In this document: one piece after another, positions 49,354-64,000 of the stretch
Position numbering within the stretch: the stretch's first letter is position 1
Layout: each line of letters opens with the position of its first letter
Assembly (NCBI GenBank): GCA_905235285.1
Contig: CAJOLI010000005.1
Coordinates: forward strand, 1 to 64,000
Direction: 5' to 3'
Source of the DNA: an uncultured Bacteroidaceae bacterium
GTDB lineage: Bacteria > Bacteroidota > Bacteroidia > Bacteroidales > Bacteroidaceae
DNA: 64,000 nucleotides
The notes under the pieces: generated by a model
The model's input: only the letters and a program-made list of their open reading frames with translations
Databases searched by the model: none
Told to the model about the DNA's origin: nothing
Program-made: the position numbers and the translations under genes

Positions 49354-52300
49354 TTATTTTACAGAGAACTTCTTTGACTTACCATTAGATAATGTCGCTA
49401 TGTAAATGCCTGCAGGCAGATGGCTGATGCGTATCAGTGCCTTTCCAAAGCCATCTGTCTCGCCCTTAGCAATAATCTCGCCCTTGAGTGAGAACAGAGT
49501 GACAGTGATGTCAGGCTCTGCATTCTCTACCTTCAGCAAGTTCTTGCTGAGATGAATCTCGGTCTGTTTCTCTGACTCGGTTTCCACTTGCTCAATGCTG
49601 TCAGGCTTATCTAGATTAAACATCTGGAACAGACGTCCTTGATTACCTGCCAGGTCGTTGGCTGTAATGAAGACTGTCATCATATAGTCCAAGTCCTTAG
49701 ATGTCAGTTCAACTTCAAAGTCAGACTCGCTTAGCATCGTGAAGTCACGTGCTTCACCATTGATGAACACCCGCAAGCTACTCGTCCTGACGGCTATATT
49801 ATCTGATACATGGATATGCAATGTATAGGCATCATCATTCAATGTAGCCTCAACTACAGGAGCCAAAGGATCGTTCTTAATGGAGGTAGCCATCATATAT
49901 TTACCCATTCTATCAACCTCGAGAGGTGTCCCTGCAGGGCCAACATATTGCCATACATCATCACTACCAGCTTCTGAATAGTAGACATCCAAAGCCTGGT
50001 CTTCGCGGAATCCAAAGGGTGTAAGGTCATCAGCACCTATTGATGATTCCAATTTAAATTTTCCAGTTTGTGTTGATGCCAATGCTGTAGCCCCTTCGTT
50101 AGCAGACAGGTCGCAAACCTCACTAATCACAAACAAAGTATCTCCTTGTTCCGTTATACCTAATAAATCACCAGCAGGATAGAAATGCGAAAATCCCAAA
50201 TTTACTCCTTCTTCAAAATTCTGGATACCATCATTTAGCGTAAACGTAAATGTGCAGATATTAGTCTGCTTTTGTTCCGCCAAGAGTGGTCGTCTGCGAC
50301 GAATTGATTTAGTATAAACAGCATCTGCCCCTGTCGTATAATAATGTTCCAATCCATCAATCGTGAAAACGGTATTTATACCTACTACAGATCCTCTACC
50401 ATAGACATCGTTCATCCTAACATAAGTTTGGCCTATTTCCGCTTTATCATCATCACCAAAAGCCTTATCAAACTGAGCCTGCAAGTATGCTGTAGCATTC
50501 TTACTCATTGCCGCCAATGGTAAATTAGACCTTGCGACGACAGGCAAGAAACGCTCATCAGCAAAACTATAATAACTAACTGAAGGATAATAAGTGAAAT
50601 CCAAGGATACACCACAATCCAGTTTTACATCTATTAGTCCCCATTTTGCCAAAGGCAGCGCAAATTTCAGTTCAGCCTTATCTGTTTCCTGCATTTCAAC
50701 TTTAAATGCGTCCTTAACTGAATATGTTCCTGACAATCTGGAAGAAACCAACTGCAAAGCTTGAGCAAGATGGTCTCCTGTCAACATACCATGAACGGTA
50801 GTCGGGGCTTCTATTATGTATTTGCTTTTCGTGTGACCGAGAGCCGGATATAGGCCATTAACATAATCTGGGTTTGATTTAGCTAAGTTTTGCAAATCTC
50901 TTGCAAACGCCCCCTGACTAGATATTTTCCATTTCCAACCGACACCTTTACCTATAGATATAGACGCTTTGGATGAAGCCGAAGTATTCTCCTTCATCCA
51001 TTCTGGACATAGATAATCTTTTAAATAATCAGAGGACAACTTGACACCAGCCTCAACGGCAAGAGTATTAGAGATTTTCTCAAGAAATGTATGATTTGAT
51101 GTAGTATACATTTCTTCCTCTTGCGTACTCAGTGTACAAAAAGCATTTGCACTAATACTATTCAAGAAACTCTTTTCATAAATTCCAGAGAAAGTTTTAA
51201 GGCTGTTGCTTGGAAGAGGTTTAAACATAGGAGCTTTTAAAGGGGACAAAGTCCCAAAAGCAGCACTTATATTTCCAGAAAACTTTCCTTTCAATTGCCT
51301 ACTAATACCATAAAGGGTTTTTGATGATTCAAAATTGTATTCACGCTTCTGGGGTTCACATTTAAATGTGGCCTCAAGGCCAAACTTCAGGCTTCCATCT
51401 GTATAGCTTGTAAACACCGGTATTTGAGGGAAAGCAACGCCTGGTAAGACCCCATAAGAGTTCGGCCAACTTTTCATTGATTTAAAATTGCCGTTCCCTG
51501 ATAGAGCCCAGAATTCACTATTTTTTTCATTTTCCAAAATAGAATCAAAGAAGCCCTCTTTTTCTTCATGTTTGACACCAAACCATGACTCGATGGCTCT
51601 TATTGATTTCAAAGTATTGGAACTGGTAAAAAGTTGCGTTGCTTCAAACCAAGAAAGCAAAATTGCTAAAGCCGTACGTTCAGGCTTCGTCCAATTATAA
51701 GTTATGCTTTCTTTTAATCCGCCTTCCACACCTGTTCCCAGGTCAAAATAATCGCCCAAGTTCAGGTTGGCCTTTCCACTTAATTTACTTTCTGATTCTA
51801 TCTCAGTCAAGAATTTACCATCACTCCATTTAAGAGATGTTTTCAACGGAAATGATAAACTAGCCGAAGCTGAAGCTACGCTCCCAAATTTTGCCTCGCC
51901 GGTCAACCCTCTATCAATAGTAATGGCAAACGACTGAACATTTTCAAAACCTGTTGCCTCAGAGAAACTATTACCTTTATGAAGTTTTAAAGAGAATTCG
52001 CCATTAGATGAATTTGCATTTCTCCAAGTTATATTCTTATTGTTTTGGTTAATGAGATCAGAAAAAACGAATCGCACATTTTCGCCTCTACTGGCAAAAG
52101 CTTCTGAACCGCTGGATGATAGCGAGAGAATGGCATAGCCATTTTCATCTGAAAAGTCAGTCTCTACGAACGATTTTGTTGAGGATCCAGAGCATCGGAA
52201 TTTGGCTTTAACATCTTTTAAAGGCTTCCCATCTTTATCGGTCATTCTAAAGTAATAAAACACCTCATCTCCCTCATTAACCTCAGAAGGTGCACAATTT

Positions 52301-55038
52301 TTAGAGACGAGTTCCATTAATGCTTCCGCGATTTCTGTTTGTTCATCACTACTAGTTATAGAAACTGAAATTGGATTAGAGAATCCATTTGATTCCACCC
52401 GCTTCCATCCAGTTTCGTTATCTGTTTTATAATTTACAGAAATTAGACTAAGACCCGCTAAAGAAGGTGTCCAATTTGCATACAATGTATGAAAACCACC
52501 ATTGCTGATTTTTGCAGACTCCGTTTTAATTACTTTAGTTCCATCCGATAGCTGAAGTATACCCGACCATACGTCAGATCCGCTATTCTGGACTTTTGCG
52601 ACAATCGTTGCGCTATTACCTTGCACAATAGAGTTAGGGCAGGTTATTGCCTCTTTCAGCTTTATGCCGCTGTTAACTGTCGGGTCAGCTATAGCATGAA
52701 TGGTTATACTGCCCATTGGAACACCGCTGCCTGTGCCACCTGTCTGGTAGTAAAGCGTCAGCGTGTGAGAGCCCACCGTTTGGGGCGTATAATCGCACTC
52801 CAGCGGCTGGCCACAGTCTTTTGGTATCGAATTGCCATACCATGGATGGATATCCGTTGTTCCCTCCTTCAGATAGAAGGAGCCTTTCCATGTCTCGCTG
52901 CCATTGTTCTTGACTATGACGCTATAATGCGCACTTTGACCTACTGTAATTGTGGCCGAGTTGGCAAGTCCATTATTCTTGAATATACTCAGATTTACAG
53001 TTTGCGTTCCGCTACTCGGCGTCTTTATAGTACTCGACATCGCGCTCCAATCGCTATTCAGACTGCTGTTGCCATTACGTGCGCGTACCTTGAATGTGTA
53101 AGATGTGTTGGGCGAAAGTCCTGAGACATCGGTTGATGTCGTGGCAACGCTCCGATAGAAGCACAGATTGGATTCTCCTGTCTTATAGACATAACAATCG
53201 TAAATAGTAGCACCTGAGACTGATCCCCAGTTGGCAATAAATCCTGACGAAGTAACACTCGTTGCGCTCAGATTACGAGGTGTTGTCAGTTTTGTTGTTG
53301 AAGTAATATTCGTAGTGAAAGACCATACGGGACTCGTGGCATGCCCGCCGCTTCCGTTGTATACGATAACCTTCCAGTAGTATGTTTTTCCTTCGTTAAG
53401 CCCTGAGAAAGAGCACGACTTACCGCTGCCACTTCTATAAGGCTTACTCACATTACTGAAGCTGTTATTAACATCGAGATATAAATCATAGTTCAAAGTA
53501 CTACCGCCGTCGTTTGCTGCTGTACTCCAAGAGAATGTACCTGATGTGGCGACACCAGTTGAACCAACTGAAGGATAAGGCGAAGATGGTGTGGTAGGAT
53601 TAATCACAGGAGCATCTGCGACTGTTACTACGAATGGGTTCTGATAGCTACCTGCCGACACAGGAACGCCACTTCCCGTATTGCCCGTCTGATAATAGAA
53701 CGTCAGAGTCTTGTTGCCTGCAGATTTCGGAGTATAAGAATCCGTCAGCGTCTTCGTAGCTCCTGCATCAATTGTTATATTACCCCATGAAAGCCAGTCC
53801 TCGCTACCATTTTTAAGATAGAATGAGCCGTTCCAGGCTGACGTACCATTATTCTTGACCTTTATAGCAAACGTATATGCCTTGCCCGTTGTCAAGATTG
53901 AAGTATTAAAGAACGATCCGCCTGCAATATAGAGATCGGGAGTGGTTAATGGCGCCTGAATGGTTACCGTGAACGGATTGCTGTAGCTGCCGCCGTCTAT
54001 GACTTCACCACTGCCATTGTCATTCGTAAGATAGTACAGCGTGAACGTCTTGCTGCCAGTTGTCGTCGGGGTATACGACAGCGTGACTGTACTCGAACTG
54101 CCAGCACTCAGGCTAAGACTTGTCTTATCGATATCCTCGCTGCCGGACTTCAGGTAGATGCCGCCCTTCCAAGCAACAGAGGCATTGTTCTTTATCGTAG
54201 CCTTGAACGTATAAGTCACGCCTTTCGTCAAGGTTGTCGTGCCAAAATATGTGCCGTTCGTTATCTTAAGATCTGCCAATGTCTTGAATGTCGACGAGCT
54301 GCTCTTACTCCAGGTGCTGGTCGTTGAGCTGTTGGCTGCCTGAATCTGGAACTGATATTCTGTGCCTGGGTCTAAGTTAACCACGCTTACGGAGTTGGTG
54401 GTGATGCCGGACTTGGTAAATGCCGGACTGCTGTAATCCGAATCCGAAGCCTTCTTCACATTGATGTTGTACTTGGTAGCACCGGTAACCGTACCCCACT
54501 TTGCCGTGAAACTGGTCGTCGAGATGTTCGAGGCCGTAAATGTGGTATTGTCAGGCGTGGAAAGGGTTGCTGCAGAATTTGCGGTAATCGTAATGGCGCG
54601 TGTACAAAACATCACACCATTCCCAGATTTCAAAAGGAAAGTATATGTATGACTTCCACTGGTGAAATCAGGAGTTACATCTAAAGATCCCTCAGAATCA
54701 CCAGCATTAACAGTCGTCCAATATTTATTCTCTTCGTTTGAGGTATTGACGTCACGAACGAGTCTCGCTGTTGTAGTATATTGGAATGTTCCGCTGTTTT
54801 TCTTAAATGAAAAAGTTATGGTTTTGTCGCTATTTACAATGGCTTTAGCTCGAATGTAAGTGCCTCCATCAGATGTGGAAGCAAGAAAAGTTTTATTCGC
54901 ATTTTCCCAATATACATCACCTGATGGCATGTTAGTCCAACTTGTCGCTGAAGAAGTATACGTTTGAGCCATTGTATTTGTCAATGACAGCAGCCACGCT
55001 AAAGTAAGAAGGACGGTTAGGAACGAATGATTTTTCAT
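49354..55038 (-). CDS. Giant (1894 aa) secreted multidomain protein with FN3- and CARDB-like repeats and T9SS-type tail
   Basis: FTAKWGTVTGATKYNINVKKAS (FN3); repeated FYLKxGxxD...TLTxYYQTGxTGSGVPVxxGSYQNPF (CARDB-like); VTLFSLKGEIIAKGETDGFGKALIRISHLPAGIYIATLSNGKSKKFSVK. Confidence 0.8.
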   Translation of the reverse strand: MKNHSFLTVLLTLAWLLSLTNTMAQTYTSSATSWTNMPSGDVYWENANKTFLASTSDGGTYIRAKAIVNSDKTITFSFKKNSGTFQYTTTARLVRDVNTSNEENKYWTTVNAGDSEGSLDVTPDFTSGSHTYTFLLKSGNGVMFCTRAITITANSAATLSTPDNTTFTASNISTTSFTAKWGTVTGATKYNINVKKASDSDYSSPAFTKSGITTNSVSVVNLDPGTEYQFQIQAANSSTTSTWSKSSSSTFKTLADLKITNGTYFGTTTLTKGVTYTFKATIKNNASVAWKGGIYLKSGSEDIDKTSLSLSAGSSSTVTLSYTPTTTGSKTFTLYYLTNDNGSGEVIDGGSYSNPFTVTIQAPLTTPDLYIAGGSFFNTSILTTGKAYTFAIKVKNNGTSAWNGSFYLKNGSEDWLSWGNITIDAGATKTLTDSYTPKSAGNKTLTFYYQTGNTGSGVPVSAGSYQNPFVVTVADAPVINPTTPSSPYPSVGSTGVATSGTFSWSTAANDGGSTLNYDLYLDVNNSFSNVSKPYRSGSGKSCSFSGLNEGKTYYWKVIVYNGSGGHATSPVWSFTTNITSTTKLTTPRNLSATSVTSSGFIANWGSVSGATIYDCYVYKTGESNLCFYRSVATTSTDVSGLSPNTSYTFKVRARNGNSSLNSDWSAMSSTIKTPSSGTQTVNLSIFKNNGLANSATITVGQSAHYSVIVKNNGSETWKGSFYLKEGTTDIHPWYGNSIPKDCGQPLECDYTPQTVGSHTLTLYYQTGGTGSGVPMGSITIHAIADPTVNSGIKLKEAITCPNSIVQGNSATIVAKVQNSGSDVWSGILQLSDGTKVIKTESAKISNGGFHTLYANWTPSLAGLSLISVNYKTDNETGWKRVESNGFSNPISVSITSSDEQTEIAEALMELVSKNCAPSEVNEGDEVFYYFRMTDKDGKPLKDVKAKFRCSGSSTKSFVETDFSDENGYAILSLSSSGSEAFASRGENVRFVFSDLINQNNKNITWRNANSSNGEFSLKLHKGNSFSEATGFENVQSFAITIDRGLTGEAKFGSVASASASLSFPLKTSLKWSDGKFLTEIESESKLSGKANLNLGDYFDLGTGVEGGLKESITYNWTKPERTALAILLSWFEATQLFTSSNTLKSIRAIESWFGVKHEEKEGFFDSILENEKNSEFWALSGNGNFKSMKSWPNSYGVLPGVAFPQIPVFTSYTDGSLKFGLEATFKCEPQKREYNFESSKTLYGISRQLKGKFSGNISAAFGTLSPLKAPMFKPLPSNSLKTFSGIYEKSFLNSISANAFCTLSTQEEEMYTTSNHTFLEKISNTLAVEAGVKLSSDYLKDYLCPEWMKENTSASSKASISIGKGVGWKWKISSQGAFARDLQNLAKSNPDYVNGLYPALGHTKSKYIIEAPTTVHGMLTGDHLAQALQLVSSRLSGTYSVKDAFKVEMQETDKAELKFALPLAKWGLIDVKLDCGVSLDFTYYPSVSYYSFADERFLPVVARSNLPLAAMSKNATAYLQAQFDKAFGDDDKAEIGQTYVRMNDVYGRGSVVGINTVFTIDGLEHYYTTGADAVYTKSIRRRRPLLAEQKQTNICTFTFTLNDGIQNFEEGVNLGFSHFYPAGDLLGITEQGDTLFVISEVCDLSANEGATALASTQTGKFKLESSIGADDLTPFGFREDQALDVYYSEAGSDDVWQYVGPAGTPLEVDRMGKYMMATSIKNDPLAPVVEATLNDDAYTLHIHVSDNIAVRTSSLRVFINGEARDFTMLSESDFEVELTSKDLDYMMTVFITANDLAGNQGRLFQMFNLDKPDSIEQVETESEKQTEIHLSKNLLKVENAEPDITVTLFSLKGEIIAKGETDGFGKALIRISHLPAGIYIATLSNGKSKKFSVK

Positions 55039-56361: not shown

Positions 56362-56499
56362 CAACTTGATGGCATTTTGCATGAAGGTCTTGACAACGTC
56401 ACGTTTGCGATGAACACTTCCGCCTATATGGGCGAGATGCTGCGTACAGGCATCGAGGGTATCGACAGAGGGCAGCGTGAGGCGGGTCTGGCGTTACGA
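56362..56499 (+). pseudogene. Remnant of amino-acid ABC transporter permease (BPD_transp_1)
   Basis: Plus-frame QLDGILHEGLDNVTFAMNTSAYMGEMLRTGIEGIDRGQREAGLALR* resembles the conserved '...NSAYMAEIxRxGIxxIDKGQxEAAxxLG' loop of polar amino-acid permeases. Confidence 0.6.
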
Positions 56500-57904
56500 T
56501 GACGCGTTCGTTCTTGCGAGGGATGCGGTTGTTCTTGATGATGGTGCGGAACTCGGGATTCACTTTGTAGAGGAATTCGGTCATCTCGTCGGGGATGAGG
56601 AAGTAGGTGCCGTTGTCGGAGTAGTAGCCGGCGAAATAGAGATAGATGGATTTCTTTATTGCGCTGCCGTTCTCGTCGACGATGCGTATGGGGCGGCAGT
56701 CTCCTTCTTCAACCACTTCCTTGGCGACGTAATAAGTGCTGCCCAGCATGATATATGGCGACTCGTCGCTTATTATCTTGCTCTTTGGCGTGAGGTCAGT
56801 GAATTTATCGGCTCTCTCTCCGAAGGCTTCCTTGGAAATTGTCATGTTGAATGGCGCCAGCGATTTCTGGTAGTAGGTGAGAGTGCCGCTGCCTTCTTCG
56901 GTGGTGAAGATGCGGATGTACTGCGTCGTTGAGTCCTGCAGGAAAGTGGCAAGGTCGTGGGTGGTGATGCTGTCCTTGCCATCGAGGATGGCGTTATGGA
57001 TTGTTTTCTTTATGTAGAGGGTAAGTACGTCTTCTCCGAGGAACAGGGCCAGGACGGAGCCTTTGCTGACGAACTGGTCGTGGTTGCTCATGTTCAGGAA
57101 GTCCGATTCCTCTGCGCTCATGGCGGAGAGGCAGACGGGGTAGAAGAGCTTGGCGTTCCTTGCGTTCTTCACGCCGTGGTGGTGAATGACCTCGCTGGTG
57201 ATAATGGGCCACGATGTCTTTGTCGGTACTGAGATGCAGATGGAGTTATCGTAGTGATATAGATTGCCGATGTCCTCATATTTTTCCAGACAGTTGACGG
57301 CAGATCCTCCGCCTATGAACAGTAGTGTCACGGGGTCGGTGTTCCCGAACAGGCGGAAGAGCAGGAACAGAATGGCGAGGAGCGATACTGCAGCCCACGC
57401 TTTCAAGGCTCTCATTTTCTTTTTGGGCGAAACGTTTGACCCAGCCACGCGTTCCTCAACCTCTTGAGTGAGTCGCTCCTTGACCTTTGCCTCGAGGTCT
57501 TCAAGATTTGAGTAGTCGACATAATAGGAGTTGGAGTTCTCGCTGAAGAGTTTCTCTACTTCCTCAATCTCGGGCGTCCTGGTCTGGAACTCTCGCATGA
57601 AGGAGAGAATTTTAGGGCTGCCTTTTTTCTTTTGGGCTTGTGAAGCGAGCAGGTATTCCTCCCTGGTTTTGTCGCCCATCTGATCCTCGACGATGAAGAT
57701 TACAATGTCGGACTTGTTCATGATGAAGTCGTCATAGTCGGCCTGGTTGTCACCAAGGTTGACGTATGAGAACATATTCAGGGTTACGGGGTACCCTTTC
57801 AGGCGATACTCTCCATTGAGGTTGTTGACGAGTGCCTTCAGCCTCAGGCGGTGTTCTTTCAGCTTCTTAGAACCCGAAACGAATATGGTAATTGATGATT
57901 TCAT
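56399..57904 (-). CDS. N-terminal TIR/DUF4062-like Rossmannoid domain + single TM + C-terminal periplasmic-binding (PstS)-like domain
   Basis: SSITIFVSGSKKLKEHRLRLKALVNNLN...DYDDFIMNKSDIVIFIVEDQMGDKTREEYLLA; TM AWAAVSLLAILFLLFRLF; VTLLFIGGGSAVNCLEKY...IRIFTTEEGSGTLTYYQ. Confidence 0.55.
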   Translation of the reverse strand: MKSSITIFVSGSKKLKEHRLRLKALVNNLNGEYRLKGYPVTLNMFSYVNLGDNQADYDDFIMNKSDIVIFIVEDQMGDKTREEYLLASQAQKKKGSPKILSFMREFQTRTPEIEEVEKLFSENSNSYYVDYSNLEDLEAKVKERLTQEVEERVAGSNVSPKKKMRALKAWAAVSLLAILFLLFRLFGNTDPVTLLFIGGGSAVNCLEKYEDIGNLYHYDNSICISVPTKTSWPIITSEVIHHHGVKNARNAKLFYPVCLSAMSAEESDFLNMSNHDQFVSKGSVLALFLGEDVLTLYIKKTIHNAILDGKDSITTHDLATFLQDSTTQYIRIFTTEEGSGTLTYYQKSLAPFNMTISKEAFGERADKFTDLTPKSKIISDESPYIMLGSTYYVAKEVVEEGDCRPIRIVDENGSAIKKSIYLYFAGYYSDNGTYFLIPDEMTEFLYKVNPEFRTIIKNNRIPRKNERVIVTPDPPHAALCRYPRCLYAASRPYRRKCSSQT

Positions 57905-57931: not shown

Positions 57932-59413
57932 TTATTGAGGTTTCCCGGCTCCTGCTGGTTTGCCATTAGCTCCTGCTGCCTTTTCTGAGCCTCCCGCGGG
58001 GGAACCACCTGCCCCTGCAGGCATCCCATTGCCTGCGGCTGAGGCTTTGGGCGTGATGGAAGGTGTGGCGGCAGGCGTACTATTGCCATCGTCGAACCAT
58101 TTGCTGCGCAGGTCGTTGAAGCTCTCGGTGAGCTTAGTCGTCTCGTAGGAATAGAGCGATGTGGCGGCCGGGTCGGTTAGCGTGGCAATCCATCCTGAGC
58201 CTTTATATGCCTGAACAATACAGTTCCATGCATTCTTCCATACGGAATCGCCCTTGCGTCGGGCTTTCATGGCTTTCCATTCCGTTTTCCACTTAGCCTT
58301 GTCCCATTTCTTCTTGCCTGGCGTAGCATCTGCGAATGCCACCTCTTTTCCGTTGCCGGCCTCGCGAATCTGATAGTAGCTGTCCTTGATGGAGCAGTCC
58401 TCAGTGATTTCCATCTCGATGCGGTATTGTCCGGTGCCCCATGAGGGTTGGTAGTTCTGGGCGTCTGTCGTTCCAGTGTAGCTTCGTGGTACGATGTACG
58501 AGTCGCCTTCTATGGTCACGAGTCTCTGATAGGCAGGGTCGTCTTTCTTGTAGATGAACCGTCCGAGTGAATCCACCTTATTGGCATCAATCTTTACGTG
58601 GACGGTGAATTCGCCCAATTGCTCGTCGTTGGTGATCATGGTAGCCTGATTCATCCAAGAGGAGAAGAGGCGAGCCTTGAGGGTCATCTTCAGGTCTTTC
58701 CGTTTGTCGAAACTAAAGCGGTTGTCGGCAGTCCCGCTTAGATCGTTGGGCAGGTTGCAGTATTTAGGAATGAAGATGAGCGTGTCAATCTCGACAAGGA
58801 ACTTGGAATGATTCACGATATGACTTATACCGACGCTGTCTCTTCGCATCTTGCAGAAGATATAGAAGATGTTGGTGCCCCGTCCAGGTTCGTCGCTCAG
58901 CTCGATATAGTTCTTGCATCCGAAGCCCTCGAACTTCAGGTTCTCGGGGTCCATGGCCCCTTTGACGGAGGGCGCTGCATAGAAGTCGTTGATACTGCTT
59001 TCGGAAGAAAGGACTTGGTTGAAGTGGCATTGCTCTTGAGCCGCCCGATACCATTGCGTACGTTCTCCTTTGATGGATTCAGCAAGATAGTTTACTCCGA
59101 GGCTGACCAGGTTGGATGTGGCATTGACGGTCTTCTGTATGATAGATGTCGAATAGGCCGACCAAAGCAGGCTGCCGAAGGCGCCTATGGCTCGTTCCTT
59201 GGAGGCCGCCTGCTGCTCCTGCATCAGTTCGTTGCTATTGCGGATCACGCTCTCGCGGTCGACGTTCTTGACTAAGATCTGGAACTTACGTTGTGCCGGA
59301 CGTGCCTGCTGGCCCTTGGCTTGGGCTTGTGCCCCACCGCCTTTCGAAGGCTGAGCGCTGAGGACTCCGGCGGAGAGGAGAGCAATGAACAGAATGTATT
59401 TTTTTTTCATCAT
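57932..59413 (-). CDS. Secreted protein of unknown function, Ala/Gly/Pro-rich C-terminus
   Basis: Signal peptide MMKKKYILFIALLSAGVLSAQ; no recognised domain; tail GNGMPAGAGGSPAGGSEKAAGANGKPAGAGKPQ. Confidence 0.75.
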   Translation of the reverse strand: MMKKKYILFIALLSAGVLSAQPSKGGGAQAQAKGQQARPAQRKFQILVKNVDRESVIRNSNELMQEQQAASKERAIGAFGSLLWSAYSTSIIQKTVNATSNLVSLGVNYLAESIKGERTQWYRAAQEQCHFNQVLSSESSINDFYAAPSVKGAMDPENLKFEGFGCKNYIELSDEPGRGTNIFYIFCKMRRDSVGISHIVNHSKFLVEIDTLIFIPKYCNLPNDLSGTADNRFSFDKRKDLKMTLKARLFSSWMNQATMITNDEQLGEFTVHVKIDANKVDSLGRFIYKKDDPAYQRLVTIEGDSYIVPRSYTGTTDAQNYQPSWGTGQYRIEMEITEDCSIKDSYYQIREAGNGKEVAFADATPGKKKWDKAKWKTEWKAMKARRKGDSVWKNAWNCIVQAYKGSGWIATLTDPAATSLYSYETTKLTESFNDLRSKWFDDGNSTPAATPSITPKASAAGNGMPAGAGGSPAGGSEKAAGANGKPAGAGKPQ

Positions 59414-59428
59414 GTATGTATTTTGAGA

Positions 59429-61594
59429 TTAGAATGCATCGATTAGGATGAAGGGGTTGGTATGTCGTGGGGTGTTGTATTTGATGACATCATCTTGGAT
59501 GGAGAGTGTCGCGGCATCGAAGCGGAAGTATGGCCGCTGTTCGTGCATCAATCGTTGGCGGGCCTGTAAGAAGGCGTCATGGATGTCGGCGGTGGCGTCT
59601 TGCTGAAGAGCCTCGTAGAAATAGCGCATAAGTAAGCTGCACGAGATGTCGTTAACGCGCCAGAGCGAGACAATCACGGCCTGTGCGCCAGCTTGTTTGA
59701 GTGCGCGCTGAATGCCATAGATGCCGTCGTCGGTCAGGTGTCCTAACCCCGTCTCACATGCCGAGAGCACAATGAGTTTGGTGTGGCTAAAGTCTTGCCT
59801 CGACAGCTCCACCGCGGATAGTATGCCATCGTAGAGGTCCTCGTCGAAGGTCTTGGCCGACAGCGTCGTGGAAGCGCCTGCAAACAAGAGTCCGCTTTTC
59901 GACATAGACTCATCGTTGCTCAAGGGCTTGATATCGCTGTAAATGCCGATATTCCCATTATAGAATCCATGAGTTGACAGATGTACGACGTCATAGCCCT
60001 TGTTGAGCAGGCGGATGAAGTTCTCATCTGTAGCTGCCGTCCCGGTCAACAGGGTGTCTTGCGGATTGGCTCTGACGATGAATATTGAGTCAACCTCTTT
60101 CTTGGCATCTGGCAGTTCGCTGATGTGCGAGGTCACATTAGCGAGGTAGCGGTAGGCTGTTACGTCGTTTCCTCTTTCCGTCGGCTTGATGTTATCGCCA
60201 TACGTGATACCTCCGCAGATGAGAGCTTTGTTAAGCTGCACTGGTTTCCGTTTCTTCTGGATTAGGCGTGTCGAGGTGAGGCGATAGCACATCTTTTGAG
60301 TATCGGGCATCAGGTACTCGACGGCCCATTGGTGGAGCAGTCCGTCAGCCGAGAAATACACTTTGCGGGCGTCGCCGATGGCAGCCATCAGCGCAGGGCT
60401 CCAGATGAGATGCGGCAGGCGCCGGTCGTTGTAGAGCGTATCTTTCACCGCCGGCAGTGTGGCTGTCAGGGCCTCGCCAACGGTATAGCTGCTGGTAAGT
60501 GGCAAGCTTAGGAGGCTGTCGGTGGAGAAGAGGTCAATGAATCGTGGACGGGCGCTGCCCTGTCGAAGGACGAGGCAGCCCATCCTCACCTCTTCGCCAG
60601 GGCCGAAGTACTGAAGGAATTCTATTGCACAATCCTTTTCGCCCAGCTCTCTTCGCACTTGTTGCCAGTTCTTCTGGGCAATGTCCTGATTCCTTTCATA
60701 AGCGACGAGGTAGCCTTTGCTGAACAATGCGAGGTCATAAAGCATTTCTGGAGAATGGTTCCCCAGCCGGACGCAGTCGTAGAGGAACTGATGGTTGGCA
60801 AGCCAGTATTGTGCCCGCTGCGAAGCATCCATCGAAGCAAGCTGCCGGCCTATAGAGGTGTATTGTTCCTTGACATACTGTTCGTAGCACTTTGCGGCTT
60901 TGGCATAGTCCCCGTCGCCTTCATGCTCAGCCTGTAGCATCAGGATTTTCCCTTTCTTGCGCACAGCCTCGTGATATCCCTCCTGGGGATGCCTCTTGTA
61001 GTAGAGCAAAGCCTCATCGATTAATGACAACGCCTCGCTGAACAGCCCTAAACGGGCCTTGCATATCGCAAGCTGCGAGACGACCTGATAGCGGTCAGCG
61101 TCGTAAGATGGTATGTCGCTTTTATCGTCGTAGTAGATAAAAATGGTATCCAGCTGAGCGTGTGCTTTAATGTAGTCCTTGGTCTTGTAATAGAGCTGAG
61201 CCAGTTCCTTGTGCAAAGTGAGCTCATTCTTATGCATGCCCCATATATTATTTGTGGCCACTCGGCCGCGGAACAGCTCGAGGCTCTTGCGGTAATAATC
61301 TTCGGCCATTGCAGCGTAGGCCGGGTCTTCGGCCCAGCCATAATAGTATGAGCCGCACATCTTGAAGAAGTAAGCCTCATAGACATCCAGGGAGTCGGAG
61401 AGAAGATTAGTGTTCTGCGAGTATAGGTCGTAATACTCCTGGATGCAGACGTGCAGCTGCTGGTAATCATCAATCAAGTAGCAGCTTTCAGCTTTTTCGA
61501 GCAAAAGGGCGAGCCTCTGCCTGACATCGTCTTTCGCACGAACGGCTCCAAACGAAGTCAACAGTATGATGAAGAGCAGCAGGTGACGTCTCAT
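59429..61594 (-). CDS. TPR-like + CHAT domain (caspase-like) protein with signal peptide
   Basis: YDVVHLSTHGFYNG (catalytic His motif); HTKLIVLSACETGLGHLTDDGIYGIQRALKQAGAQAVIVSLWRVND (catalytic Cys motif); alpha-helical TPR-like N-half. Confidence 0.9.
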   Translation of the reverse strand: MRRHLLLFIILLTSFGAVRAKDDVRQRLALLLEKAESCYLIDDYQQLHVCIQEYYDLYSQNTNLLSDSLDVYEAYFFKMCGSYYYGWAEDPAYAAMAEDYYRKSLELFRGRVATNNIWGMHKNELTLHKELAQLYYKTKDYIKAHAQLDTIFIYYDDKSDIPSYDADRYQVVSQLAICKARLGLFSEALSLIDEALLYYKRHPQEGYHEAVRKKGKILMLQAEHEGDGDYAKAAKCYEQYVKEQYTSIGRQLASMDASQRAQYWLANHQFLYDCVRLGNHSPEMLYDLALFSKGYLVAYERNQDIAQKNWQQVRRELGEKDCAIEFLQYFGPGEEVRMGCLVLRQGSARPRFIDLFSTDSLLSLPLTSSYTVGEALTATLPAVKDTLYNDRRLPHLIWSPALMAAIGDARKVYFSADGLLHQWAVEYLMPDTQKMCYRLTSTRLIQKKRKPVQLNKALICGGITYGDNIKPTERGNDVTAYRYLANVTSHISELPDAKKEVDSIFIVRANPQDTLLTGTAATDENFIRLLNKGYDVVHLSTHGFYNGNIGIYSDIKPLSNDESMSKSGLLFAGASTTLSAKTFDEDLYDGILSAVELSRQDFSHTKLIVLSACETGLGHLTDDGIYGIQRALKQAGAQAVIVSLWRVNDISCSLLMRYFYEALQQDATADIHDAFLQARQRLMHEQRPYFRFDAATLSIQDDVIKYNTPRHTNPFILIDAF

Positions 61595-62220
61595 TATTTC
61601 TGTGGGTTGTAGTTGAGGATGGTGAACGACTCCTGCTCGGCCACGTTGTCTGGCGCAAGAGAGATGGAGAACGTGATGCTATCTTGCAGGGCTACGCGCC
61701 CTAAGCTAATCAAGACGATGCCTTCGTTGTCGGGAGTAGAACTCTTGTCGTTGACGGCGACGGAATACCTGGCTTTTGGGTTGAAAGGTATGAAGGCGAA
61801 CTCCTGAGGTCCGAGATGGCTGGTGAGAGTATATGAGACGGTTTTCCCTCTTGGCACGGTCTTTTCTATCGCGGAATAGAAGATGCCTTTCTCCGTGCTG
61901 TTGAAGAATTCCCCTTTCGACACGAGGCCTCTGTTTTGCCGGTCGTAGACGAAGGTTACGACCTGATTCATCTTGAATTTGTTGGCCCCGGCACCCCTAT
62001 ATTCATCAGCGGCTCGTCCGATTTCGTCCATCAGCGTAATCTTAGGCTTCCCCGCTTCAGACCATCTGAGCACGGTCTGATTCAGTGCTGTTTTTGAGAC
62101 CTTCGTCTTTCGCAGGGCAATGACGTCCTTCACTAGTGAAGAGAGATGGGACGCTTCTTGAGCAGAGGGCCCTTGGAGGCAGAGGGCCGTCAAAAGTAAG
62201 AAAAGTATAATTCGCTTCAT
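61594..62220 (-). CDS. Small secreted protein of unknown function
   Basis: Signal peptide MKRIILFLLLTALCLQGPSA; start overlaps the downstream CHAT gene as TAATG. Confidence 0.7.
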   Translation of the reverse strand: MKRIILFLLLTALCLQGPSAQEASHLSSLVKDVIALRKTKVSKTALNQTVLRWSEAGKPKITLMDEIGRAADEYRGAGANKFKMNQVVTFVYDRQNRGLVSKGEFFNSTEKGIFYSAIEKTVPRGKTVSYTLTSHLGPQEFAFIPFNPKARYSVAVNDKSSTPDNEGIVLISLGRVALQDSITFSISLAPDNVAEQESFTILNYNPQK

Positions 62221-62786
62221 AATTCAATCATTTCTTCTGGCCAATTGTCGTAGCTTGGTGTAGGTGAGATTCTGGCTGGGCCTTGCGCAGCTATGGCCTG
62301 CCGCTTTTCGTGCAGGCATCTGGCCCGTTCTTTCTCGGCAATGTCCTGAAGCTCCTGCACGCCGGGCCGTTCTGCAGGGTTCCATGCCAGGCATCGTTGC
62401 ATGACAGGCGTCAAGGCCTGATGCTTTTTCTGCAATCCGGGTAATGCCACCTTAGGGTAAGCCTGTTGGTATTGTCCTCCATAACCTCCGAAGAGAATGC
62501 GCCCGGACGAGGCAAAGTAGATGTTCGCACCTAAAGCCCACACGAACTGGGCTTCAGACGCGGTCTCCATCATGCCCTGACATTCGGGCGGCAAGAATTC
62601 GGCCTTTGCCTCTTGCGAGACATCCATCAGGAATCTGTCTGCATCTACGATGACAGACTGGGGTGTGGGCAGAAACTGCTTCATGGGGTTCTTCCTTACG
62701 ATGTCACACAGGTCGATAATCATCGTCCATATGGCATCCTCGGTGCAGAATCCTGCTATGTGATGAAGTCTTAATGTCTCATTCAT
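62217..62786 (-). CDS. Degenerate protein-kinase C-lobe (pseudokinase-like)
   Basis: LPTPQSVIVDADRFLMDVSQ aligns with the HxDLxPxNILxDxxGxxxLxDFG region without catalytic residues; ...LTPVMQRCLAWNPAERPGVQEL matches the kinase subdomain XI pattern. Confidence 0.6.
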   Translation of the reverse strand: MNETLRLHHIAGFCTEDAIWTMIIDLCDIVRKNPMKQFLPTPQSVIVDADRFLMDVSQEAKAEFLPPECQGMMETASEAQFVWALGANIYFASSGRILFGGYGGQYQQAYPKVALPGLQKKHQALTPVMQRCLAWNPAERPGVQELQDIAEKERARCLHEKRQAIAAQGPARISPTPSYDNWPEEMIEL

Positions 62787-64000
62787 TGTCAGGGCCTCCT
62801 TTCATGTTTAGAATCACCGACGATGGCACGGCACGCTTGAAGATGCCGCTGCTTATGCTATCTACGCGTGATACGATTCCCACAGCGACGATGCCATCGG
62901 ACGTTTTTGTCAGCACCGGCCCTCCCGAGAAGCCGTGGTTGATGTTGGCCTCAAAGACGATGTTCTCTGCCTCAGGATGTAAGTCTTGCTTGATGGTGCC
63001 TTCGCTGTAGGTGACGCGTCGGGTATTCGAATTAGTGATGGGATATCCGCAAACCATCAGCGAAGCACCTTTGGGCAGCTCTTGCAACTCCTGCTCAGAG
63101 GCAAGGGCAATCTTTCCTTTCTCTGCGAAGCCGTCAATCCACAGGACGTCTCCCATTTCCATTTGTGAATCCTGAAAGTAAGGCTGGATGGTGCGCCAGT
63201 AATAGTCTTGGTTGAAATCGGCCAAAAGGAAGATGCCGTCTTTTGCCGTGTTGATATGTACGCGTGGATCCGCCGAATGGAACGCAAATTTCTGTTCTCC
63301 CATGAAGTCGTAGATGCTAAAGAAAGCCCGTAGCTGCATCGTCGAGTCCTCGTGCTGCGCTTGATTGAACGTCTCAGTTTCTATCGCCCATTTAACGATA
63401 TCGTCGTCGGCAAGGCTCTTGTACTTCCGGGTCAGGTCAACGCTCGCGCCAATCCAGTATTCCACACAATGCCGGGCCGTAACGAGGATGCCGTCAGTGG
63501 TGAGGAACGCTGTCCCAGTGGGCGCTTCGCCCGAAAGAATCTTGACGCGTCGTTGTTCAATCTCATTACCATGATGGATCAAGAGCTGCTTCACGGAATC
63601 CGTCCTGATGAGGTAAAGAGATTCCTCGAGAGGCGTCACGTCGGCCACGCTTATCGGTTCCTGTTTTCTCCCGAAGAAGAGGAATACGACCGCAAAGAGC
63701 AACAAGCCAACGGCAAGCCAAAGCGCTGCCCCCCGCATTGTCGTATTGGACTCCTGCTTGCGATGGACTTGGAAGAGCAGGGCCATCTGCTGCCCTTCGA
63801 AATGGATGATATCCCCGTTTACGAGCCGACAGGCATAGCCAATCTCGCCTTTTCCCTCAATCGAGATGCCGGTGTGTTGCGAGCGTCTGATGATATACCA
63901 GCCACGGCAATCGTCGTCGTGGATGATTGTTGCATAGTATTCAGGCTGAAACGAGGCAGAGTCATAGCGGATGTCGCAGTCGGCACTCTCGCCGATATTA
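62779..64000 (-). CDS. FHA domain - TM - trypsin-like serine protease (CDS continues beyond the window; ORF track starts at an internal Met at 63786)
   Basis: Open frame continues to the edge: NIGESADCDIRYDSASFQPEYYATIIHDDDCRGWYIIRRSQHTGISIEGKGEIGYACRLVNGDIIHFEGQQ (FHA-like). Then TM GAALWLAVGLLLFAVVFLFFG and GTAFLTTDGILVTARHCVEYW...NINHGFSGGPVLTKTSDGIVAVGIVS. Confidence 0.8.
   Translation of the reverse strand, partial: NIGESADCDIRYDSASFQPEYYATIIHDDDCRGWYIIRRSQHTGISIEGKGEIGYACRLVNGDIIHFEGQQMALLFQVHRKQESNTTMRGAALWLAVGLLLFAVVFLFFGRKQEPISVADVTPLEESLYLIRTDSVKQLLIHHGNEIEQRRVKILSGEAPTGTAFLTTDGILVTARHCVEYWIGASVDLTRKYKSLADDDIVKWAIETETFNQAQHEDSTMQLRAFFSIYDFMGEQKFAFHSADPRVHINTAKDGIFLLADFNQDYYWRTIQPYFQDSQMEMGDVLWIDGFAEKGKIALASEQELQELPKGASLMVCGYPITNSNTRRVTYSEGTIKQDLHPEAENIVFEANINHGFSGGPVLTKTSDGIVAVGIVSRVDSISSGIFKRAVPSSVILNMKGGPDNE

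Follow-up and report, generated by a model that had tools for sequence, protein, structure and literature searches.

A trypsin-like protease joined to a pseudo-FHA domain in a recurrent gene cassette of an uncultured Bacteroidaceae bacterium

The FHA-TM-trypsin gene and its product

The stretch of 64,000 nucleotides analysed here, called the window, comprises positions 1 to 64,000 of an 84,410-bp contig (CAJOLI010000005.1, here C5), part of a 2.76-Mb metagenome-assembled genome (MAG) of an uncultured Bacteroidaceae bacterium. At its far end lies a minus-strand gene for a protein combining an FHA-like region (aa ~7-111), one transmembrane (TM) helix and a trypsin-like domain (Table 1). The frame runs from 62779 to 63999 with no stop codon up to the window edge, and the flanking DNA completes it to an open reading frame (ORF) of 438 aa at C5:62779-64095, whose ATG, at contig position 64095, lies in a 4-bp overlap with the preceding gene. 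Since the frame continues to C5:64095, the methionine at 63786 is merely the earliest start codon that falls within the window. The initial annotation had described an FHA-TM-trypsin fusion, cut short by the ORF call and open to the window edge; this observation is confirmed, no stop codon being present just upstream of 64000 and an FHA domain being clear by fold.

The trypsin part was identified from several sides. PF00089 aligned with the window protein at 24.9 bits, above its cut-off, and both a profile search of the PDB and the fold of a modelled relative revealed resemblance to HtrA, DegS and MarP structures. The proposed catalytic triad, His209-Asp286-Ser390, proved invariant in 52/52 relatives, so that family (PF00089/PF13365), fold and triad together define a trypsin-like serine protease.

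The FHA part was more difficult to assign by sequence. Indeed, PF00498 aligned with the window protein at 14.8 bits (E=0.041), below the gathering cut-off of 20.7, and matched 12 of 44 relatives (best 5e-5). Since Pfam alone was too weak, the domain was assigned by fold, using an AlphaFold2 model of a complete relative at locus L014, which is 67% identical to the window protein and was modelled from a 44-row alignment. With a mean pLDDT (predicted local distance difference test) of 90.7, the model superimposes on the FHA structures 3po8 and GarA 7rj3 with a TM-score of 0.76 (Foldseek), which corresponds to the FHA β-sandwich in this relative.

The mean net charge flanking the TM helix is +1.4 before and -0.6 after it among the 52 relatives. 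This bias favours a cytosolic FHA domain with the N-terminus inside and a periplasmic trypsin domain, in agreement with the earlier proposal of a cytoplasmic domain tethered across the membrane to a protease.

Table 1. Features of the FHA-TM-trypsin locus; positions in the window and on contig C5 share one numbering
Feature	Position	Strand	Basis or remark
RyR-like tandem-RCK protein, about 500 aa, first core gene	C5:64092-65597		just beyond the window
FHA-TM-trypsin protein, aa 1-32	C5:64000-64095		past the window edge
Pseudo-FHA domain, aa 33-111 of 438	63763..63999	(-)	fold by AlphaFold/Foldseek; phosphothreonine-pocket residues missing
Single TM helix, aa 123-141	63673..63729	(-)	hydropathy; helix 116-142 in the L014 model
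Trypsin-like protease domain, aa ~160-438	62779..63618	(-)	Pfam, PDB profile search, fold, triad
Catalytic His209	63469-63471	(-)	triad
Catalytic Asp286	63238-63240	(-)	triad
Catalytic Ser390	62926-62928	(-)	triad
Pseudokinase, 189 aa, C-lobe remnant alone, without N-lobe, HRD and DFG	62217..62786	(-)	PF07714/PF00069; motif counts; alignment A2
Exported X domain, 208 aa, signal-like N-terminal stretch	61594..62220	(-)	alignment A3; gene maps
Exported TPR-CHAT caspase-like protease, 721 aa, signal peptide-like N-terminus, His542/Cys613	59429..61594	(-)	PF12770; alignment A5
Exported partner EXP, 493 aa, without Pfam family	57932..59413	(-)	conserved in 38 loci; alignment A6
Possible accessory gene, 501 aa, weak TIR-like N-terminus (E=0.063)	56399..57904	(-)	also in L014 and L023; outside the conserved core

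Loss of the phosphothreonine pocket

In FHA domains, phosphothreonine is contacted by the arginine of the GR motif and by the serine and the histidine of the SxxH motif. None of the three is kept in the 52 proteins of the window's type (type 1). Their arginine position carries Q in 37, E in 10, D in two and S, F or N in one each; the serine position carries P in 27, D in 22 and A, L or E in one each; and the histidine position is occupied by Y, F, I, L, S, V or M. The structural positions G35, W66, G81 and D95 are invariant. In a sister family of 14 homologous proteins (L065-L076, L079 and L080), on the other hand, all three pocket residues are kept in 14/14 (Fisher p about 1e-14, a value that ignores relatedness). 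Thus, the type 1 FHA domain has lost its phosphate-reading pocket.

The adjoining pseudokinase is reduced in a similar manner. Its PF07714/PF00069 match is confined to the last 100 profile positions, and HRD, DFG and the N-lobe were found in none of the 52 fused or kinase-only type 1 proteins, which are therefore not Ser/Thr kinases by these marks. Gene maps and Pfam matches of the neighbours showed no PP2C in the type 1 cassette. Since type 1 lacks both the pocket and the kinase motifs, kinase activity and phosphate reading are absent together. The sister operons have a different equipment, with DZR-FHA and STK-FHA proteins (STK, Ser/Thr kinase), a canonical FHA-TM-trypsin protein, an exported protein c7, PP2C and full kinases, 14 of which carry HRDxK and DFG. 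In several members, their FHA-TM-trypsin proteins can be aligned with the type 1 proteins along almost the entire sequence. The operons differ from the cassette by their intact pockets, kinases and PP2C, and genes for RyR-like proteins, exported CHAT or TIR were not found near them. The simple reading is that the cassette descended from a phospho-signalling ancestor.

These data bear directly on the idea of a phosphopeptide-gated protease, where a Ser/Thr kinase would phosphorylate a protein on threonine and the FHA domain, by binding it, would control the periplasmic trypsin domain. The preserved FHA fold would suit it, as would the sister family, in which an intact FHA-TM-trypsin protein is paired with STK-FHA, DZR-FHA and PP2C. 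However, with the pocket residues missing throughout, an adjoining kinase deprived of its catalytic motifs and a cassette devoid of PP2C, such gating appears very improbable for type 1. The 'phosphopeptide reader' of the initial annotation was accordingly not borne out. Its second suggestion, transmembrane control of proteolysis, is still the best reading, though not via phosphothreonine recognition, so that the interpretation as a whole is partly supported.

The gene cassette and its RyR-like sensor

The FHA-TM-trypsin gene is the second of a five-gene cassette. The order RyR-like, FHA-TM-trypsin, pseudokinase (with or without X), CHAT and, in most cases, EXP recurs in about 50 Bacteroidales loci; in some, EXP is missing or CHAT is displaced. 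In 23 proteins, X follows the pseudokinase within one polypeptide, and in many relatives a hydrophobic segment links the two; the window carries them as separate overlapping genes. The CHAT protein matches PF12770 with 142 bits and its H542 and C613 are invariant in alignment A5, as expected for a CHAT protease. N-terminal hydrophobic segments are present in 40/48 CHAT and 34/37 EXP relatives, the export signals of CHAT, EXP and X having been judged by hydropathy and not by a signal-peptide predictor. Since the charge bias puts the FHA domain inside and CHAT, EXP and X begin with export-signal-like stretches, the trypsin domain and CHAT would share one compartment. A homology of X with the exported c7 of the sister operons was considered but found no support (P=0.22).

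The first gene encodes a putative cytosolic sensor. Modelled for the relative at locus L014 (pLDDT 91.7), it resembles the tandem-RCK gating rings of Slo1 and GsuK with a probability of up to 0.98; since the full-length TM-scores are low (0.2-0.37), this likeness is a lead at the level of fold. A PDB sequence search with the sensor gave no real match. Channel-linked paralogues could be aligned with its C-terminal EHNRW domain (P=3.5e-23) and, in turn, with Pfam-confirmed RyR domains (P=2.9e-11). In this transitive alignment, the H, W, H and D ligand residues fall into register: H417, W420 and H456 of the sensor are invariant and D478 is kept in at least 90% of 42 members. They correspond to H75, W78, H100 and D117 of the phage protein RyDEP, which contact its ADP-ribose ligand (PMC13232231). 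PF02026 matched 2/42 members below its gathering score (best E=0.075), and the full sensor showed weak similarity to RyR proteins in direct profile comparison. Because this direct similarity is weak, the protein is named 'RyR-like'. A 723-aa paralogue of the sensor is encoded beyond the window (C5:67791-69962; L002:13791-15962, minus strand); it is channel-like, with N-terminal TM helices followed by RCK-like and RyR-like regions, and has LIDTNALNNLY instead of the TVGYG filter.

TIR domains were found in 31 of 615 ORFs, at 23/45 type 1 loci, including that of the window, versus 0/12 sister loci (p=8e-4). The 45 loci are those kept for counts after removal of obvious near-duplicates, some near-duplicates still being present. 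The window's genome has two TIR genes above the cut-off, one of them upstream of the cassette with a TIR domain (C5:67285-67671) that keeps the WxxxE glutamate. The gene at this place (C5:66424-67683; L002:12424-13683), beyond the window and on the same minus strand, encodes a TIR domain, then a TM segment and a coiled-coil-like C-terminus.

A single-sequence search of genome contigs gave no match; an alignment query led to 64 named loci, most of which lie in Bacteroidales MAGs of ruminant-gut origin. Relatives occur in 5/301 genomes of the family and 1/396 of a phylum sample, the latter being the window's own. An origin from a mobile element was rejected, no match having been found among the phages or plasmids searched. 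Other neighbouring genes encode SIR2-TIR proteins, nSTAND1 NTPases, PrsW proteases, channel-like RCK-RyR proteins and, next to sigma-like genes, RyR proteins. At one locus (L022:5836-8133), a fusion of an nSTAND1 NTPase with a lysozyme-like glycosyl hydrolase 25 adjoins a SIR2-TIR gene and the cassette. At three others (L016:518-1997, L057:15077-16571 and L060:15663-17295), the cassette adjoins a small sigma-70-like gene overlapping one whose product carries an RyR domain at its C-terminus; the two may form a nucleotide-controlled sigma/anti-sigma pair. The window also encodes, at 49354-55038, an exported repeat-rich protein of 1894 aa with an apparently sorting-type C-terminus.

This distribution and company matter for the view that the cassette is a housekeeping module for processing proteins that are secreted or displayed on the surface, genomic islands being the only reason why TIR genes lie close by. 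It would account for the several exported proteins, the PrsW-type proteases of some loci and the loci devoid of EXP. Such patchy presence is, however, hardly that of a housekeeping function, and RyR, TIR, SIR2 and nSTAND neighbours are typical of conflict systems, which makes this view rather improbable.

Proposed signalling and comparison with known systems

We propose that the FHA-TM-trypsin protein forms the link across the membrane in a five-gene cassette for signalling and proteolysis that conveys a cytosolic nucleotide signal to periplasmic proteases, a reading to which we assign a probability of about 0.4. In its favour are the recurrent gene order, the pocket loss of type 1 as against the intact sister family with its kinases and PP2C, the gating-ring-like model and aligned RyR ligand residues of the sensor, the TIR genes near type 1 but not sister loci, and the charge bias together with the export-type N-termini. 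While these features were observed, the ligand, the direction of the signal, the relation between trypsin and CHAT and the outcome are inferred. The tandem-RCK/RyR-like protein would bind a nucleotide in the cytosol, most likely an ADP-ribose-type product of nearby TIR enzymes. The pseudo-FHA domain and the pseudokinase could act as protein-contact adaptors, neither reading nor writing phosphate, and the signal would pass the inner membrane via single TM helices to turn on the trypsin domain. The latter is predicted to act on, or together with, exported TPR-CHAT and EXP, the outcome probably being damage to the cell's own envelope or destruction of an envelope target, as in abortive-type defence. 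A fuller scenario is more speculative, and we hold it as a tentative possibility. Here, a soluble gating-ring/RyR protein would bind an ADP-ribose signal derived from TIR and thereby turn on periplasmic trypsin and CHAT in a transmembrane immune cascade, which would have evolved from a kinase/FHA phospho-signalling system by joint loss of catalytic and phosphate-binding parts.

Several observations weigh against a nucleotide-driven conflict system. The direct comparison of the core sensor with RyR domains is weak (P=8e-4), and the RyR domains with demonstrated ligand binding are those of phage proteins (PMC13232231) and not of cassette sensors. Since half of the loci have no TIR gene within the DNA analysed, TIR may be cargo and not the source of the signal. 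Searches with PADLOC and NCBIfam returned generic partial matches alone (protease and TIR models) and no known defence system, and no copies of the cassette occur among the phages or plasmids searched.

The main rival reverses the direction of the signal. EXP, X and CHAT would detect envelope damage, the trypsin domain would change state, and the pseudo-FHA domain and pseudokinase would inform the RCK/RyR protein. Such an outside-in sensor would fit the presence of three exported components, the small cytosolic domains of the single-TM proteins and, in some loci, the sigma-factor-like gene adjoining an RyR-domain gene. Nevertheless, the sole recognisable small-molecule sensor is cytosolic and the nearby TIR enzymes work on cytosolic NAD+, so we regard it as unlikely, albeit the strongest of the alternatives.

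Two elements have precedents, namely the FHA-trypsin fusion and the union of trypsin, caspase-like and TIR domains in conflict systems. The FHA-FHA-trypsin protein NP_811686.1 of Bacteroides thetaiotaomicron, also from Bacteroidales, has its FHA domains N-terminal to trypsin; unlike the present protein, it was listed as a lone architecture, without function or gene context (PMC2605481). MarP (Rv3671c) and DegS, which matched structurally, are membrane-tethered trypsin-like proteases as well, but they have no FHA domain and a different membrane part, and DegS carries a PDZ domain. Thoeris and RyDEP share TIR enzymes and RyR-type nucleotide-binding domains with the cassette loci (PMC13232231). 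There, however, the RyR proteins serve phages for evasion (PMC13232231). In Thoeris, a TIR enzyme makes a cADPR isomer that activates a paired effector, and the cassette core contains no effector of the SIR2-ThsA type. A literature search, with many subscription papers outside its reach, revealed no description of the complete cassette, in which pseudo-FHA-TM-trypsin and a pseudokinase are combined with an RyR-like sensor and exported CHAT.

A further parallel is found in the NTP-dependent conflict systems (NTP, nucleoside triphosphate), whose trypsin, caspase and TIR effectors have a predicted counter-invader role (PMC7159879, PMC8195603). As at the cassette loci, genes for trypsin-like peptidases, peptidases of the caspase superfamily, TIR and STAND proteins share one neighbourhood. 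In the parts of these sources consulted, no design is described that spans the membrane and includes exported CHAT and an RyR-like sensor. Their vWA-MoxR core, VMAP/iSTAND and EAD were absent from the Pfam matches listed for the core and sampled neighbours, no EAD-specific model having been searched. If our reading is correct, the cassette would be a conflict-type system that senses inside and executes proteolysis outside the cytosol, using pseudo-domains for transmission, and RyR-like domains would become candidate receivers of TIR signals on the host side. Furthermore, the sister family and the cassette form a natural pair for following how phospho-signalling parts turn into pure adaptors.
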